From positions 1,736,001 through 1,800,000 of the forward strand of contig CP051229.1 of assembly GCA_017792365.1 (NCBI GenBank): a stretch of 64,000 nt of DNA. The letters are read 5' to 3'. Shown piece after piece: positions 35,105 to 55,197 of the stretch (its first letter is position 1; each line of letters starts with the position of its first letter). The notes beneath the pieces are model-generated. The model saw only the letters and a list, made by a program, of their open reading frames with translations, did not search any database and had not been told where the DNA came from. Position numbers and translations under genes: made by a program. Source of the stretch: Hyphomonas sp. Lineage in GTDB: Bacteria; Pseudomonadota; Alphaproteobacteria; Caulobacterales; Hyphomonadaceae.

Positions 35105-36196
35105 ATGCACCACACAAGACTTCTGTTCGCCGCCGTCAGCCTCGCCGCGCTGTCCGCTCTCGCCCCCGCCGCCATAGCCCAGACCGCGCCAGACGCTGAG
35201 GCCGCCCCCACCGGGCTCGACGCCCAGCGCTACATCCGCGCCGGCTTTACCCCCCCGCGCACCGAGACCGGCAGGCCCGACTTCCAGGGCGTCTGGACCA
35301 ACGCCTCCGTCACCCGCCTGACCCGACCCGACGGCTACCCCCTCGTCCTCAGCGATGAGCAGGCCGACCAGCTCGAAGGCGGCTCGCTCTTCAACCAGCG
35401 CCTCGAAAACGAGGCCTCCTTCGTTGACCCCGATGAGGGCGCCCCGGAAGCCGGCCGCGCCCTCCCCCCGGTCGGCAATTACGACGTCGCGTGGACCGAT
35501 CCCGGCTCCACCGTCGCCAACATCAACGGCGAGCTGCGTTCGTCCTTCCTCGTCTACCCCGCAGACGGCCAGGTCCCCGCGCTGACTGAGGCCGGCCGCC
35601 AGGCCCGCCAGGCCGCCCCGCGCCGCCGCGGCACCGGCTACGACCACCCCGAAGAGCGCGGCCTGTCCGAACGCTGCGTCGTCATTGGCGTCGCCGGCCC
35701 GCCGCTCGGCCAGTACCTCTACAACAACAACCTCCAGATCGTGCAGACCGGCTCCGATCTCGTCCTCATGACCGAGATGATCCACGACGCCCGCATCATC
35801 CGCATCGGCGAAGACGAACAGCACGTGCCCGAAGCGATCGAACCCTGGATGGGCGACAGCATCGCCCATTGGGACGGCGACACGCTGGTCGTCGAAACCG
35901 CCAACATCCACCCCGAACAGCGCACCGGCGCCACCTTCATCTCGCCCACCGGCAAGATCACCGAGCGCTTCACCCGCATTTCGGAAAGCCAGCTGCTCTA
36001 CCAGTTCGAGGTCAACGACCCGGCCTACTACACCGACGTCTGGCGCGCCGAGATGCCGCTCTACCGCCTCAACGAGCGCATCCACGAATACGCCTGCCAC
36101 GAAGGCAATTACGGCCTCGAAAACATCCTGTCCGGCGGCCGCTGGAACGACCGTATGGGTATCGATCACACGGGTGGAGAAGACCGCGGAGAATAG
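35105..36196 (+). CDS. secreted protein of unknown function, paralog 1
   Basis: 363 residues. Signal peptide to PAAIAQTA. Conserved blocks include RPDFQGVWTNASVTRL, GNYDVAWTDPGSTVANINGE, GTGYDHPEERGLSERCV, YLYNNNLQIVQT, PWMGDSIAHWDGDTLVVETA and ITERFTRISESQLLYQFEV. All of these recur in the gene at 48114 (over half identical by eye). The family is widespread in Proteobacteria and Acidobacteria as a periplasmic protein without known function. The second copy lies directly before a copper-monooxygenase gene, which hints at oxidative metabolism of a hydrophobic compound. Confidence 0.8.
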   Translation: MHHTRLLFAAVSLAALSALAPAAIAQTAPDAEAAPTGLDAQRYIRAGFTPPRTETGRPDFQGVWTNASVTRLTRPDGYPLVLSDEQADQLEGGSLFNQRLENEASFVDPDEGAPEAGRALPPVGNYDVAWTDPGSTVANINGELRSSFLVYPADGQVPALTEAGRQARQAAPRRRGTGYDHPEERGLSERCVVIGVAGPPLGQYLYNNNLQIVQTGSDLVLMTEMIHDARIIRIGEDEQHVPEAIEPWMGDSIAHWDGDTLVVETANIHPEQRTGATFISPTGKITERFTRISESQLLYQFEVNDPAYYTDVWRAEMPLYRLNERIHEYACHEGNYGLENILSGGRWNDRMGIDHTGGEDRGE

Positions 36197-48113: not shown

Positions 48114-49133
48114 ATGCAACGGACAACCACAATCATCGCGCTGCTCACGGCAGCCGCCGCACTCACCGCACACGCGCAAACCGCAACCGACTACAACCCG
48201 CCCCGCACGCCCGACGGCAAACCGGATCTGCAGGGCGTCTGGTCCACCGCAACCGCCACCAGCCTCGAACGACCCGAAGGCTACCCGCTCGTCATCACCC
48301 CAGAACAGGCGAGCGAGATCGAAGGCGGCACGCTCTTCAACCGCCGCCTCGCTACAGAGGCCAGCTATGTCGACCCCGAAGAAGGCGCGCCGGAGAAAGG
48401 CGCCGCCCTGCCGCCCGTCGGCAATTACGATGTCGGCTGGACGGACCCCGGCGCCTACGTCACCCACATCAACGGCGAGCTGCGCTCGTCATGGATCGTC
48501 TATCCCGAAGACGGCCAGATCCCCGAGCTGACGGAAGCCGGCCGCGCCCTCGAAGCGACCAGTCCCCGCCGCCGCGGCACCGGCTACGACCACCCGGAAG
48601 AACGCGGCCTCGGCGAACGCTGCGTCCTGATGAACGGCGGCCCGCCCCTGCGCTCGGGCCTCTACAACAACAATGTCCAGATCGTTCAGACGCCCGACCA
48701 CGTCATGATGATGAACGAGATGATCCACGAAGTGCGCATCGCCCCGTTCGGCGATGACGCCGCCCCGCAAGCGATCGAGCCATGGATGGGCGACCAGAAG
48801 GCAAGCTGGGACGGCGACACGCTTGTGATCGAAACCACAGGCATCCACCCCAGCCAGCGCCTCGAGCGCCTCCTCCTCTCGAAGGATGCAAGGATCACCG
48901 AACGCTTCACCCGCATCTCCGACAGCCAGATCCTCTACCAGTACGAGATCGACGACCCGGCCGTGTACACCGATGTCTGGCGCGCGGAATCGGCCATGAA
49001 CCTGCTCGATCACCGCATCTACGAGTTCGCCTGCCACGAAGGGAACTACGGCCTCGAGAACATCCTGCAGGGCGGCCGCTGGAACGATCGCAACAACATC
49101 GCGCACACCGGCGGCGACAAGCGCGAGGAATAG
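48114..49133 (+). CDS. secreted protein of unknown function, paralog 2
   Basis: 339 residues. Signal peptide to LTAHAQTA. Shares all blocks with the protein at 35105: KPDLQGVWSTATATSLERPE, GNYDVGWTDPGAYVTHINGE, GTGYDHPEERGLGERCV, LYNNNVQIVQT, PWMGDQKASWDGDTLVIETT, and ITERFTRISDSQILYQYEID. Between the LytTR regulator and the redoxin/copper monooxygenase gene, 168 bp apart from the latter. Likely periplasmic; may work with that enzyme (inference from position). Confidence 0.8.
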   Translation: MQRTTTIIALLTAAAALTAHAQTATDYNPPRTPDGKPDLQGVWSTATATSLERPEGYPLVITPEQASEIEGGTLFNRRLATEASYVDPEEGAPEKGAALPPVGNYDVGWTDPGAYVTHINGELRSSWIVYPEDGQIPELTEAGRALEATSPRRRGTGYDHPEERGLGERCVLMNGGPPLRSGLYNNNVQIVQTPDHVMMMNEMIHEVRIAPFGDDAAPQAIEPWMGDQKASWDGDTLVIETTGIHPSQRLERLLLSKDARITERFTRISDSQILYQYEIDDPAVYTDVWRAESAMNLLDHRIYEFACHEGNYGLENILQGGRWNDRNNIAHTGGDKREE

Positions 49134-49300: not shown

Positions 49301-51295
49301 ATGAAGACCCGCACACTCGGCATCGCTCTCGCTGGCGTCGCCACGGCCGCGCTGATCGGCGTGACCGCCAACGGCCAGACATCGCGCAACGCCGCGGTCG
49401 TCACCCAGGTCACCGTTCCGGCGACCGCGGAGAATTTCCGCCTCGTCGACAACAAGGCCTTCGGCCACGAGCTCTACTACTTCAAGAATTCCAAGGCCGT
49501 CGTGCTGATCTCCCACAAGGTCGGGTCGAAGCACATCGCCGCCGCCGCCGACACGATCGAGAAGATCGCCGCCGACTATGCCGATCAGGATGTCGAGGTC
49601 TTCCTCATAAACTCCAATCCGGCCGACTCGCGCGAAGCGATCAACGCCGATCTCAAGGCCATCGGCCTTGAAGGCGTCCGCGTCCTCCAGGACGACACCC
49701 AGCTGATCGGTGAAAGCCTCGGCATCTCCCGCGAAGCCGAAGCGCTCGTGATCCAGCCCGGCAAGTCCTTCGCCGTCGCCTACCACGGCCCGATCGACAA
49801 CCGCTTCGCAGGCGAAACGCCCAAGGCCAACGCCAAGGTCAAGGCCGCCTACGTCACCGACGCGCTCGATGCGATCGCCGGCGGCAATGCCGTGAAGGCT
49901 TCGTCAGCCGAACTCAAGAGCCCGGCGATCGCCTTCCCCAACCGCGCCCGCAAGGCCGAGTTCGCAAACATCTCCTATTCGGAAACCGTGGCCCCGCTGA
50001 TCGCCGAGAACTGCGCCGCATGTCACGCCGAAAACGGCATCGCGCCATTCGCGCTCAACAGCTACGAGATGGTCAAGGGCTTCGCCCCGATGATCCGCGA
50101 AGTCATCCGCACCGATCGCATGCCGCCCTACAACGCCGACCGCCACATGGGCGAATACAAGGACGACATGAACCTCACGGCCGGCGAGATGCAGACGCTG
50201 GTGCACTGGATCGAAGCCGGCGCGCCACGCGGCAGCGGACCGGACATCCTGAAAGCCGAGGTCAAGCCCGCACCCGAATGGCCGCTCGGCGAGCCTGACG
50301 CCATCGTCACGATGCCCGAATACGAAATCCCGGCGACCGGCATCGTCGACTACCAATATCCCAAGGTGCAGAACCCGCTGACCGAAGGCCGCTGGCTGCG
50401 CGCCTCCACTGTCAATGTCGGCGACCGCCAGGCCGTCCACCACCTGCTCTCCACCGTCGGCAACTACGCCGTCGGCGCTGAAACCACCGTCTATCCGGAG
50501 GATACAGGCGTCTGGATCGAACCCGGCGCCGACGTCAGCGCCCAGCTCCACTACACGCCCTACGGCAAGGCCACGACGGACATCTCCCGCGTCGGCATGT
50601 ACTTCTACCCCAAGGGCGAAGAGCCGAAGTACATCCGCCGCAGCGCTGTGGTCGTGAACTCCGGCATCGAGATCCCGGCCGGCGAAGCGCGCCACAAGGA
50701 AGTCGCCTATATGACCTTCCCGGCGGACGCGACGCTCTACACCGTCTATCCGCACGCTCACTATCGCGGCGATTCCATGCAGATCTTCCTGCAGAAGCCG
50801 GGCGGCAAGGAAGAGCTCATCCTCTCCCTGCCAAAGTACGACTTCAACTGGCAGCGCGGCTATGACTTCGCCGAGCCCATCCAGGTCAAGCCGGGCACGA
50901 AAATCATCACGCGCTACGTCTACGACAACTCGGTGCACAATCCGGCAAACCCGGATCCGACCGAAACCGTCACTTGGGGCGAGCAATCGCACGAGGAGAT
51001 GCAGTTCACGTCCTTCAGCTACCGCTGGAACGATGAGACCGTCGAGAACCAGACGCCGCAACACCAGGAGGCTCTGCAGGCCTCGCTGATGATCGGCGCC
51101 CTCGACAAGAACATCGACGACAAGCTGCAGCGTGCAGAGATCAAAGGCCGCATGGGCCAGATGCTCCTCGCCCAGTTCGACAAGCTGGACGCCGATACCG
51201 ACGGCGCCCTGTCCCTTGAAGAGCTCAAGCCCGTCGCCTCCATGATGAACCGTGGCCGGCGCCGCGCCGAAGCTGACGGCGTCGCCCCCAGCTAG
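49301..51295 (+). CDS. redoxin - cytochrome c - copper type II monooxygenase - EF-hand protein
   Basis: 664 residues, exported (signal to about 26). Domains in order: a thioredoxin-like redoxin domain (about 40-190; RVLQDDTQLIGESLGISREA) without the usual active-site cysteine (ISHKVGSK); a haem c site CAACH (238-242); and a PHM-like copper monooxygenase (about 340-580). All six expected copper ligands appear: HH 380-381, H417 in QLHYTPYG, H485/H487 in YPHAHYRG, and M567 in SHEEMQF. A C-terminal EF-hand pair ends in DADTDGALSLEEL (630-642). It should hydroxylate a C-H bond in the periplasm, with electrons passed through its own haem. Confidence 0.8.
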   Translation: MKTRTLGIALAGVATAALIGVTANGQTSRNAAVVTQVTVPATAENFRLVDNKAFGHELYYFKNSKAVVLISHKVGSKHIAAAADTIEKIAADYADQDVEVFLINSNPADSREAINADLKAIGLEGVRVLQDDTQLIGESLGISREAEALVIQPGKSFAVAYHGPIDNRFAGETPKANAKVKAAYVTDALDAIAGGNAVKASSAELKSPAIAFPNRARKAEFANISYSETVAPLIAENCAACHAENGIAPFALNSYEMVKGFAPMIREVIRTDRMPPYNADRHMGEYKDDMNLTAGEMQTLVHWIEAGAPRGSGPDILKAEVKPAPEWPLGEPDAIVTMPEYEIPATGIVDYQYPKVQNPLTEGRWLRASTVNVGDRQAVHHLLSTVGNYAVGAETTVYPEDTGVWIEPGADVSAQLHYTPYGKATTDISRVGMYFYPKGEEPKYIRRSAVVVNSGIEIPAGEARHKEVAYMTFPADATLYTVYPHAHYRGDSMQIFLQKPGGKEELILSLPKYDFNWQRGYDFAEPIQVKPGTKIITRYVYDNSVHNPANPDPTETVTWGEQSHEEMQFTSFSYRWNDETVENQTPQHQEALQASLMIGALDKNIDDKLQRAEIKGRMGQMLLAQFDKLDADTDGALSLEELKPVASMMNRGRRRAEADGVAPS

Positions 51296-51458: not shown

Positions 51459-52265
51459 GTGACAACCGCCCCCGTGAACGCCACGCCCCCCGCCCCGGAC
51501 GCGCTCCGCCTCTCCGGCCTCACCAAGCGGTTCGGCGACAAGACTGCGGTCGACGCCATCGCCTTCCATGTCCGCCCGCGCGAAATCTACGCCCTGCTCG
51601 GTCCCAATGGCGCCGGCAAGACCACCACCTTGCGCATGATCGCCGGCCTGCTCGCCTCCGACGGCGGCGACATTTCGATCTTCGGCGTCGACGCGATCAA
51701 GGACCCGCTCGCCGCCAAGCAGATCGTCGCCTGGCTGCCAGACGAGCCGCTCCTCTACGACAAGCTGACGGCGTGGGAATACCTTGAATTCATCGCCGGC
51801 CTCTGGCGCGTCGACACCAAGCTGGCCGAACAACGCGCCGAAGACCTGCTCAGGCTTCTCGGCCTCTGGGACAACCGCAACGATCGCTGCGAAACCTTCT
51901 CGCGCGGCATGAAGCAGAAGGCCGTCCTCGCCGGCGCCCTCATCCACGACCCCAGGCTCCTGATGCTCGACGAGCCGCTGACCGGCCTCGACGCCGCCGC
52001 CTCCCGGCAGGTGAAGGACCTCCTTCGCCAGAAGGTCGCCGACGGCGCCTCCGTCATCCTGACGACCCACATCCTCGAAGTCGCCGAACGCATGGCCGAC
52101 CGCATCGGCATCATCCAGTCCGGCCGCATCCTCGTCGAAGGCGCGCTCGGCGAACTGCAGGCCCGCGTCGGCGCCGAAGGACAGTCGCTCGAAGACGTCT
52201 TCCTGTCCCTCACGCGCCAGGCCGAGGCCGAAGCCAGATCGGCAGAACCTGAACCCCAGACATGA
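51459..52265 (+). CDS. ABC transporter ATP-binding protein
   Basis: 268 residues from GTG 51459. LLGPNGAGKTTTL (Walker A), TFSRGMKQKAVLAGALIHDP (signature), LLMLDEPLTGLDA (Walker B), ILTTHILEVAERMAD (H-loop). Subgroup with single-domain ATPases that pair with a multi-spanning permease; the permease gene follows with a 4-bp ATGA overlap. Export substrate unknown. Confidence 0.93.
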   Translation: MTTAPVNATPPAPDALRLSGLTKRFGDKTAVDAIAFHVRPREIYALLGPNGAGKTTTLRMIAGLLASDGGDISIFGVDAIKDPLAAKQIVAWLPDEPLLYDKLTAWEYLEFIAGLWRVDTKLAEQRAEDLLRLLGLWDNRNDRCETFSRGMKQKAVLAGALIHDPRLLMLDEPLTGLDAAASRQVKDLLRQKVADGASVILTTHILEVAERMADRIGIIQSGRILVEGALGELQARVGAEGQSLEDVFLSLTRQAEAEARSAEPEPQT

Positions 52266-53800
52266 ACCTGTTCCGGCCCGAACCCGGCGGCGCGCTCTGG
52301 CTGCTCCGCAACGAACTCAGACTGTTCTGGCGCAAGGGCGACAAGAAGACGTCCCTGCGCGCCGTCCTGTCGCAGTCGCCGTCGGCTGGCCGGATTCTTC
52401 CGCTCATCTTCCGCCCGCTTTCGGAAGTCGTTCCCCCGCCCCCGCTGGGTTCCGCCCCAATGGAGGCGCTCGCGCTCGCTGCGACCTCCGTGATGATCGC
52501 CTTCATCGCCACCCTGATCATCTCGCAGGGCTTGCAACGCACGATCGAAGCGATCTACCTGCGCAACGATCTCGATCTCCTGCTCTCAGCACCGCTAAAG
52601 GGCTGGACGATCCTCATCGTTCGCTCCGCCGGCGTCGCGATCTCGACCCTGCCGCTCTACGTCTTCCTCCTCGGCCCGCCGATACTTTGGCTCACCCTGC
52701 TGAACTCCCCGCTCTGGCTCACCGCCATCCCGACCGTTCTGGCTCTGGCGTTCGGCGGCACGGGCGTCGCCCTCCTGCTCGTCACCGTCCTCTTTCGCCT
52801 GATCGGCCCCAAACGCACGCGCATCGCCGCCCAGATCCTCAGCCTCGTGATTGGCGCGGCGATCTTCATCCTGTTCCAGCTGCCCAACTTCAATCGCCGG
52901 TTCCGCGAGATCGACGAGGACGAAATGCTGGAAGGCTTCGAGGCGCTGCAGGTGGACGCCGACGCCTTCTACTTCTTCCCGCGCGCGCCGTCACAGGCGA
53001 CGCCCCTGCAATGCTGCTCGTCACGCTCATCTGCGCCGGTCTGTTCTCGCTCGGCGTCTGGGTCTTTTCCCGCCGCTTCGTCACGGACGCAGCCGCCGTC
53101 TCAGCCATGGAGCCGCGCCGCAACACGGCCGCGATCGCATCGCGCGGCATGCGCGCCGGCCTGCTCGCCTCAATCGTCCGCAAGGAGCTGCGCCTCCTCC
53201 TTCGCGACACCGTCCTCCTCTCGCGTATCGGCCTGCAGATCGTCTACCTCATCCCCGTCGCCTATCTCCTGATGATGCCGGGCAACGGACAGGCCCGCCC
53301 TTCCGGCCTTCGCCCCGGTGCTCACGATGCTGGCCACCTCGCTCGCCGGCAGCCTCGCGTGGATCACCATCTCCGCCGAAGACGCCCCCGACCTCGTCGC
53401 ATCATCCCCGGCCGGCAAGAAGCTGATCGAACGCGGCAAGATGATCGCCGCCATCGCACCCGTCGCCGTCCTGATGACCATCCCGGTGGCGATCCTCTTC
53501 TGGCGCGATCCCGTTGTCGCCGTCTGGTGCGCGCTCGGCGTCGCCGCCGGCTCGACCTGCGCTGCACTCATCGGTCTCTGGCGACAGGTGCCCGGCAACC
53601 GCAACAACATCATGAAATCGCGCGGCAAGGGCTCCTTCGCCGTCGCAATGGGTCAGACCTTCGTGGCCCTCGGCCTCTCGGCCACTGTCGGCCTCGGCGC
53701 CTATGGCTATCCGTGGCTCGCGATCATTCCCGCCATCCTTTCGGCCGCCGTTTTCGCAGCCGCTTACAAGCCGGCCGACCAGGCCGCCGCCCTCCAGTAG
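52262..53800 (+). CDS. ABC transporter permease (two frame breaks)
   Basis: About 513 residues over three frames. 52262 to about 52990: MNLFRPEPGGALWLLRNELR to DAFYFFPRAPS. Then GDAPAMLLVTLICAGLFSLG to YLIPVAYLLMMPGN. From about 53300, ALPAFAPVLTMLATSLAGSL to PADQAAALQ. Eight to twelve membrane helices. The pieces join without loss of sense, so single-base errors near 52992 and 53301 are likely. Partner of the ATPase encoded just before. Confidence 0.8.
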
Positions 53801-53905: not shown

Positions 53906-55197
53906 CTAGCTTGTGAACTTCGATCCGTCCGCCGCCTTCTTGCGCAGGAGGTCAGACACGATAATCGACGGCACGGCCTCCGAAACCCGCTCGACAACCT
54001 TCAGCACGCGGTCCGCGCCGACATGGTCGCACAGATACATCGGCCCGCCCTTGTCGGCCGGCCAGCCATACCCGTTCAGCCACACCACATCTATGTCGGA
54101 TGCGCGCTGCGCCATGCCTTCCTCGAGAATGCGGGCGCCTTCGTTGATCATCGGGAACACACATTCCTCGATGATCTCCTCCTGCGTCACGGTCCGCTGC
54201 GGAAGTCCCGACTGCTCGGCGAATTCCTTCACGATCGCCGCGACTTCTTCCGACGGCGAACCGTTGCGCTGTTCGTCATAGTCGTAATACCCGGCGCCCG
54301 ATTTCTGGCCGCGGCGGTCCGTGCGCTCGCAGATCATGTCGCGAAGCGGGTTGGCCGTCTTCGCGCCCGGCTTCCAGCCGATGTCGAGACCGGCGAGGTC
54401 CGACATCTGGAACGGGCCCATGCGGAAGCCAAACGCGTTGAACGCAGCGTCGACATCCCACGGCATCGCGCCCTGCTTCACCAGCTGCTGCGCCGGCAGG
54501 CCGCGCGCATACAGGATCCGGTTGCCGACAAAGCCCGGGCACACGCCAACCAGCGCCGCCACCTTGCCGATCTTCTTGGCGAGGTCCATCGACGTGGCGA
54601 TCACCGTGTCCGACGTCTTGGCCGCGCGCACGATCTCCAGCAGCTTCATCACGTTCGCCGGCGAGAAGAAGTGCAGCCCGATCACGTCTTCAGGCCGCTT
54701 GGTCACCGAGGCGATCTCGTTGATGTCCAGCGCCGACGTGTTGGTCGCAAGGATCGCGCCCTGCTTGCAGACCGAATCCAGCTTGGTGAAGATCTCCTTC
54801 TTCACACCCATGTCTTCGAACACGGCCTCGATGATCAGGTCGCAATCCGCCAGGTCATCCATGCTCAGCGACGAGGTAATCCGCGCCATGCGCTCCGGCA
54901 CTTCCTCCATCGGGAACCGCCCGCGCGAAGCCGAACGCTCATAGTTCTTCTGGATGACGCCGGGCCGCGATCCAGCGCTTCCTGCTTCGTCTCCACGATG
55001 TGCACCGGAATGCCGACATTCACGAAGTTCATCGAGATGCCGCCGCCCATCGTCCCGGCCCCGATGATCCCGACCTTCTTGACTGGCTTCAGCGGCGTAT
55101 CCGCCGGCAGGCCTTCCACCACCCACGCCTTCTTCGTGGCGGCCGCAATGTATTCGGCGACGGCTTCTTTGGGTTCGATCGGATCAACAAGCGACAT
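53906..55197 (-). CDS. 3-hydroxyacyl-CoA dehydrogenase (frameshift near 54963)
   Basis: About 430 residues. Starts [20 protein letters not shown]; the NAD site is [20 protein letters not shown]. The frame breaks after [24 protein letters not shown] continues. Then [56 protein letters not shown], and a second C-terminal 3HCDH domain. It oxidises 3-hydroxyacyl-CoA in beta-oxidation. It matches only the dehydrogenase half of FadJ/FadB-type fused enzymes. The hydratase half is absent, and the start lies where the linker would be. Confidence 0.85.

Follow-up and report, generated by a model that had tools for sequence, protein, structure and literature searches.

A predicted PHM/DBH-type dicopper monooxygenase from Hyphomonas that joins redoxin, haem c and EF-hand domains in one chain

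The window, a stretch of 64,000 nucleotides from contig CP051229.1 of Hyphomonas sp., contains a single unbroken reading frame that encodes a protein of 664 amino acids followed by a stop codon. From the N- to the C-terminus, the chain comprises a likely signal peptide, a redoxin, a haem c domain, a copper core of two beta-sandwiches and a helical pair with two EF-hand loops (Table 1). In 36 of 114 relatives, as counted with a regular expression, a lipobox-like motif replaces this type of signal peptide. The neighbouring gene upstream encodes a secreted PDLxGVW protein, for which no Pfam or NCBIfam match was obtained.

Table 1. Features of the copper gene and its upstream neighbour, in positions of the window; residue numbers refer to the 664-residue protein.
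Feature	Position	Strand	Basis
Secreted 339-residue PDLxGVW protein	48114..49133	+	Same strand as the copper gene, 168 bp upstream
Whole gene, redoxin-haem c-dicopper core-EF-hand	49301..51295	+	Intact frame; full-length homologs
Likely Sec signal peptide, MKTRTLGIALAGVATAALIGVTANG	49301..49375	+	Read by eye; disordered in the AlphaFold model
Redoxin (AhpC/TSA-like), residues 42-200	49424..49900	+	Pfam; PDB relatives 3u5r, 2ywi and 2cvb by profile and fold
c-type haem domain, residues 218-318	49952..50254	+	Cytochrome_CBB3 model in 40/60 members; alignment
CAACH haem-attachment motif, residues 238-242	50012..50026	+	C, C and H invariant 60/60
M264, alternative axial haem ligand	50090..50092	+	Invariant 60/60
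M274, in the invariant MPP motif; probable axial haem ligand	50120..50122	+	Invariant 60/60
N-terminal CuH-type beta-sandwich, ~residues 334-452	50300..50656	+	Predicted strands; PHM/DBH fold match over ~300 columns
H380 H381, CuH ligand pair	50438..50443	+	Invariant 60/60
H417, third CuH ligand	50549..50551	+	60/60; aligned with DBH EVHYH
C-terminal CuM-type beta-sandwich, ~residues 465-576	50693..51028	+	Cu2_monoox_C; predicted strands
H485-A-H487, CuM ligands	50753..50761	+	Invariant 60/60; aligned with DBH HTH
M567, CuM ligand, EEM context	50999..51001	+	Invariant 60/60
EF-hand loop 1, DKNIDDKLQRAE, residues 602-613	51104..51139	+	D602 and E613 invariant 60/60
EF-hand loop 2, DADTDGALSLEE, residues 630-641	51188..51223	+	D630 and E641 59/60; Pfam EF-hand 45/60

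When the protein was compared with Pfam as a single sequence, all matches scored weakly (AhpC-TSA 0.005, cytochrome c 0.007, Cu2_monoox_C 7e-5, EF-hand 0.002), so that homologs were needed to read its domains. Across 60 family members, and at a cut-off of E <= 0.01, the AhpC-TSA model was matched in 56, Cu2_monoox_C in 47, EF-hand in 45 and cbb3-type cytochrome c in 40. An AlphaFold2 model built from the 60-row alignment reached a pLDDT of 90.4 and a pTM of 0.86, the latter value suggesting that the four modelled domains hold a fixed arrangement. Searching this model against the PDB, we found PHM (3mll, 1.1e-12) and human DBH (4zel, 1.3e-12) to lead the fold matches, over ~300 columns, with the redoxin part matching SMc02350 (3u5r) at 4e-11. 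An earlier, sequence-only reading of this DNA had placed all four parts in one chain, and the intact frame, the motifs, the ligand order and the fold search all agree with that observation.

The copper core carries the six ligands that define the PHM/DBH superfamily, in the order HH, H, HxH, M that had been read from the sequence: H380 H381, H417, H485xH487 and M567. The two-domain PHM fold was likewise recovered, with a Foldseek E of ~1e-12 to PHM/DBH and a TM score of ~0.6 by PHM length, and a profile of the core alone retrieved a single sequence from the PDB, human DBH (E 3e-4), with the CuH histidine (HY) and the HxH motif in register. Of 45 members whose domain was searched in isolation, 44 matched Cu2_monoox_C; against the 23-bit cut-off of PF03712, the isolated core scored 24.5, the genome scan 25.6 and the full chain 22.8, just under it, and the N-domain model PF01082 was not reached. 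The equivalence of M567 to M314 of PHM and M487 of DBH rests on its order, its EEM context and the fold. Two second-shell glutamines also have counterparts. Q415, conserved in 56/60 members, precedes H417 by two residues, the same spacing as Q170 and H172 of PHM, and Q518 aligns with PHM Q272 by the human DBH profile. The 60/60 conservation of Gln518 and Trp517 is partly by construction, as both lay inside one of the search patterns of the scan, though both are also invariant in the 16 sequences that were not picked by pattern. In PHM, Q170 and Q272 belong to the active-site water network (PMC6123673).

A loop of ~15-24 residues that directly follows the HH pair in 56 of the 60 sequences is missing from the window protein and the three sequences closest to it; this loop-less stretch lies at 50447-50460 and may alter access to CuH. 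Two residues before HxH, where PHM has R240, the anchor of the peptide carboxylate, the window protein has Y483, and the commonest residues among the 60 sequences (register counted from HxH) are F (30), Y (11), V (10), T (5) and Q (2). The peptide anchor of PHM is probably missing from this core, and we rejected peptide amidation of the PHM type (peptidylglycine hydroxylase) because the anchor position is not Arg.

The disulfides of the PHM/DBH core are absent as well. In 111 of 114 members the chain is free of cysteine beyond the haem motif, and the window protein has two cysteines in total, both in CAACH, whereas 14 of the 15 cysteines of DBH are in disulfides (PMC4846438). Judged by its sequence, the core is a disulfide-free variant of the PHM/DBH fold. 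With PHM (3mll, 1phm), its top fold match, the window protein has in common the two-sandwich core, the ligand series and the equivalents of Q170 and Q272, but PHM carries a PAL lyase and the window protein instead has fused haem c, redoxin and EF-hands. DBH, tyramine beta-monooxygenase and MOXD (4zel) have the same core and likewise an N-terminal domain fused to it. In DBH this is a DOMON domain, which has the fold of the cytochrome domain of cellobiose dehydrogenase and a metal-ion site but no haem or haem pocket (PMC4846438), in contrast to the putative covalent haem c (CxxCH) of the window protein, and the place of the C-terminal dimerisation helices of DBH is taken by the EF-hand pair. The DBH-like fusion of a cytochrome-type domain to a copper core appears to have been solved in bacteria with a putative covalent haem.

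The haem site, confirmed as CAACH at residues 238-242, belongs to a CxxCH motif kept in 114/114 family members and is followed by a distal Met, the combination by which c-type cytochromes are recognised; the genome also holds the cytochrome c maturation gene CcmH. M274 would probably be the axial ligand, opposite H242, giving a haem of the His/Met type, an assignment for which we presume the usual practice with c-type cytochromes. CxxCH with a downstream MPP is also common to the small c-type cytochromes resembling cbb3-type subunit III (PF13442), from which the window domain differs in being fused inside a copper monooxygenase chain.

In the redoxin, position 76 is Ser, bearing out the remark that this domain has lost its redox cysteine. 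Related redoxins of the SMc02350 type (3u5r, 2ywi, 2cvb) are similar in fold and sequence (25% identity), and many copper-family members keep an NGCPxVR motif, but the cysteine is gone from the clade to which the window protein belongs. Column 76 of the 60-sequence alignment holds C in 24, S in 18 and D in 17 cases, and 42/70 members are devoid of any cysteine in the redoxin segment, while 28/70 still have one. A quick tree of these 70 members, with support by SH-aLRT only, requires five or more changes of cysteine state on the strength of its well-supported branches.

This variability stands against the constancy of the metal-binding residues. H380, H381, H417, H485, H487, M567, C238, C241, H242, M264 and M274 are invariant in 35/35 sequences collected by a whole-protein search with no motif selection, and again in all 60 rows of the larger alignment, so that the ligand conservation on which the sequence-only reading had staked its proposal held. 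Because the copper ligands, CxxCH, M264 and M274 are identical in these unselected sequences, the combination of domains and motifs lies far beyond chance. A fusion that arose by chance or has degenerated, and is no longer active, is scarcely credible to us: the marginal single-sequence domain scores and a frameshifted paralog in the same genome could be read that way, but ligands are perfectly conserved in more than 100 homologs at 40-60% identity, which rules it out for the family as a whole. With the redoxin cysteine absent in 42/70 members and its state changed at least five times, constraint acts on the haem and the copper and not on the thiol; the redoxin thiol appears dispensable and the haem does not, which makes the haem a better candidate than the redoxin for the internal redox partner of the enzyme.

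The same observations bear on a role in copper or peroxide handling with no organic substrate, as a copper store, a derivative of a thiol peroxidase or a redox sensor. The redoxin fold and the cysteine retained in 28 of the 70 members recall peroxiredoxins and TlpA-type proteins, and paralogs are many; but six PHM ligands with a second shell exceed what copper binding needs, the redoxin thiol was repeatedly lost, and no copper-resistance genes were seen near copper-family loci in the gene neighbourhoods inspected. We consider such a role very unlikely.

At the end of the chain, the canonical EF-hand pointed out before is present as D630-E641, and a second loop, D602-E613, lies beyond the one described in the text of the sequence-only reading (whose title spoke of EF-hands in the plural); both are 12-residue loops with D at position 1 and E at position 12. 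The loop ends are conserved, and the proposed control function of calcium finds no support beyond that conservation; calcium may as likely be structural as regulatory. One paralog in the same genome (L005, G000:C1:902637-904541) stops at a TAA before the second EF-hand and has lost the second calcium loop.

Contrary to the impression of a singular four-part chain, the gene is one of a family. In its own genome (G000, one contig of 3.4 Mb) we counted seven copies, which share 45-49% identity with the one in the window; one is frameshifted. Full-length homologs with the same domain order were found in other genomes, and scanning the genomes of bacteria and archaea returned at least 585 matches. 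The best 80 of these came from Hyphomonadaceae, Caulobacteraceae (mainly Phenylobacterium), Parvularculaceae, Kordiimonadaceae and gammaproteobacteria (e.g. HTCC2143, Exilibacterium and Wenzhouxiangella), and where named were alpha- and gammaproteobacterial only. Among 101 genomes of relatives, its own included, 25 carry the family, with 1 to ~11 copies each. The distribution is patchy: among 299 genomes sampled from the phylum the family is rare, full-length members occurring only in Hyphomonadaceae-like genomes and one neighbouring family, next to one partial match. No relative was found in the plasmid records searched. Three matches that begin at residue 215-255 (in G038, G041 and G020) were considered as natural variants devoid of the redoxin and rejected, as all three run off contig ends. 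A search of open-licence papers found no description of a redoxin-haem c-dicopper architecture, which is weak evidence of novelty. Within the PHM/DBH superfamily, these proteins form a widespread and apparently undescribed branch in bacteria, marked by a haem c domain of its own. The frameshifted paralog (L007/L008, G000:C1:3021794-3023703) is split between residues 479 and 482 and is either a pseudogene or a sequencing error.

Weighing this evidence, we lean towards a periplasmic, non-coupled dicopper monooxygenase of the PHM/DBH type in which haem c replaces ascorbate as the entry point for electrons. Such an enzyme would reside in the periplasm, in some relatives probably with a lipid anchor. 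O2 and substrate would meet at CuM (H485, H487, M567), with electrons relayed by CuH (H380, H381, H417), and the haem c, standing in for ascorbate, would accept electrons one at a time from a c-type cytochrome of the periplasm or a different donor of the respiratory chain and hand them to CuH. The redoxin fold, having no cysteine, would now serve as a structural or docking domain, the EF-hand pair would bind calcium and stabilise the C-terminus, and the paralogs would differ in the substrates they hydroxylate, which would be small, probably hydrophobic and taken up from outside the cell. The proposal first made from the sequence, of an enzyme fed with electrons by its own haem, has become more likely, since the repeated loss of the redoxin cysteine contrasts with a haem that is kept throughout. 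Against a haem-fed monooxygenase, gene neighbours are not conserved family-wide, and invariance of the haem is equally expected if it carries electrons away from the copper or only holds the fold.

PHM and DBH, moreover, take ascorbate as their donor and function with no haem (PMC4846438), and the DOMON domain of DBH, a cytochrome-like fold devoid of a haem pocket, implies that redox activity is not required of a cytochrome-like domain in such a fusion. The window protein might by the same token be a monooxygenase driven by ascorbate or another small reductant, with the haem c serving structure, docking or the sensing of oxygen or redox state. We rate this as unlikely: the haem motif and both candidate axial Met residues are invariant, unlike in DBH DOMON, and had the domain a structural role alone, CxxCH should have disappeared from some of the more than 100 divergent members, yet all 114 keep it. 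We also know of no bacterial periplasm with millimolar ascorbate.

Electrons might also flow the other way, with the copper core oxidising a substrate and the haem feeding the respiratory chain, as in a dehydrogenase or oxidase. A His/Met haem c is a common electron outlet of periplasmic dehydrogenases, and one paralog adjoins genes for a molybdenum dehydrogenase of the IorA/IorB type, but the window protein keeps the full PHM/DBH ligand set, including the CuM Met and the second-shell Gln, and this set activates O2 in all characterised members. We consider this direction clearly unlikely.

A haem-fed monooxygenase would be of interest on several counts. PHM/DBH chemistry has to our knowledge been studied almost only in the animal enzymes, which make noradrenaline and amidated neuropeptides; these need ascorbate, and the route of electrons between their two coppers, 11 Å apart, is still debated. 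The window protein may draw its electrons from the respiratory chain rather than from vitamin C, and in a fusion of this kind, found in nature, a covalent haem would report their entry to CuH by its colour, electron by electron. It would also add to marine and soil bacteria a class of respiration-coupled oxygenases outside the cytoplasm, with several paralogs per genome.

New here is the co-occurrence of the copper family with the PDLxGVW family across the 101 genomes. PDLxGVW proteins are present in 25/25 genomes with the copper family and in 2/76 of those devoid of it (Fisher p ~1e-21, not corrected for relatedness); the window genome has ~27 copies, a second one in the window at 35105-36196. 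Two cases are nearly independent of clade: the only genome of its listed genus with either family (G033) has one of each, not adjacent, and a genome in another family (G077) has two PDLxGVW and two copper genes, none adjacent. Linkage within the window genome is marginal, 2/7 copper genes lying within 2 kb of a PDLxGVW gene (permutation p 0.04). A shared lifestyle could account for the co-occurrence, which, strict as it is, offers a concrete lead to a pathway. The low-confidence model of the PDLxGVW protein (pLDDT 66) shows a barrel resembling retinol- and fatty-acid-binding proteins, with a weak match (E 6e-4) that hints at hydrophobic ligands. In its widest form, which we hold to be possible but doubtful, the proposal is that oligotrophic proteobacteria use self-sufficient, ascorbate-independent periplasmic dicopper monooxygenases, driven by the respiratory chain and with up to ~11 paralogs per genome, to degrade hydrophobic organic matter together with co-expanded PDLxGVW proteins, perhaps carriers with a barrel of the fatty-acid-binding type.

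The surroundings of the copper genes vary. The paralog L003 (L130 2378-10592; G000 at ~1.648 Mb) follows the IorA/IorB-type molybdenum dehydrogenase genes and precedes two PDLxGVW genes, and in the relative L051 an IorB-like gene lies upstream of the copper-family gene. An operon with the ABC transporter downstream of the window gene was rejected because neighbours are not conserved across loci. The ABC-type permease that follows the copper gene (52262-53797) spans two or three frames, suggesting frameshifts or assembly indels. Further downstream, on the reverse strand, a 3-hydroxyacyl-CoA dehydrogenase (53909-55197) lies in two frames here and in a single frame in the relative L040 (8581-9924), which points to an indel in either genome or assembly.
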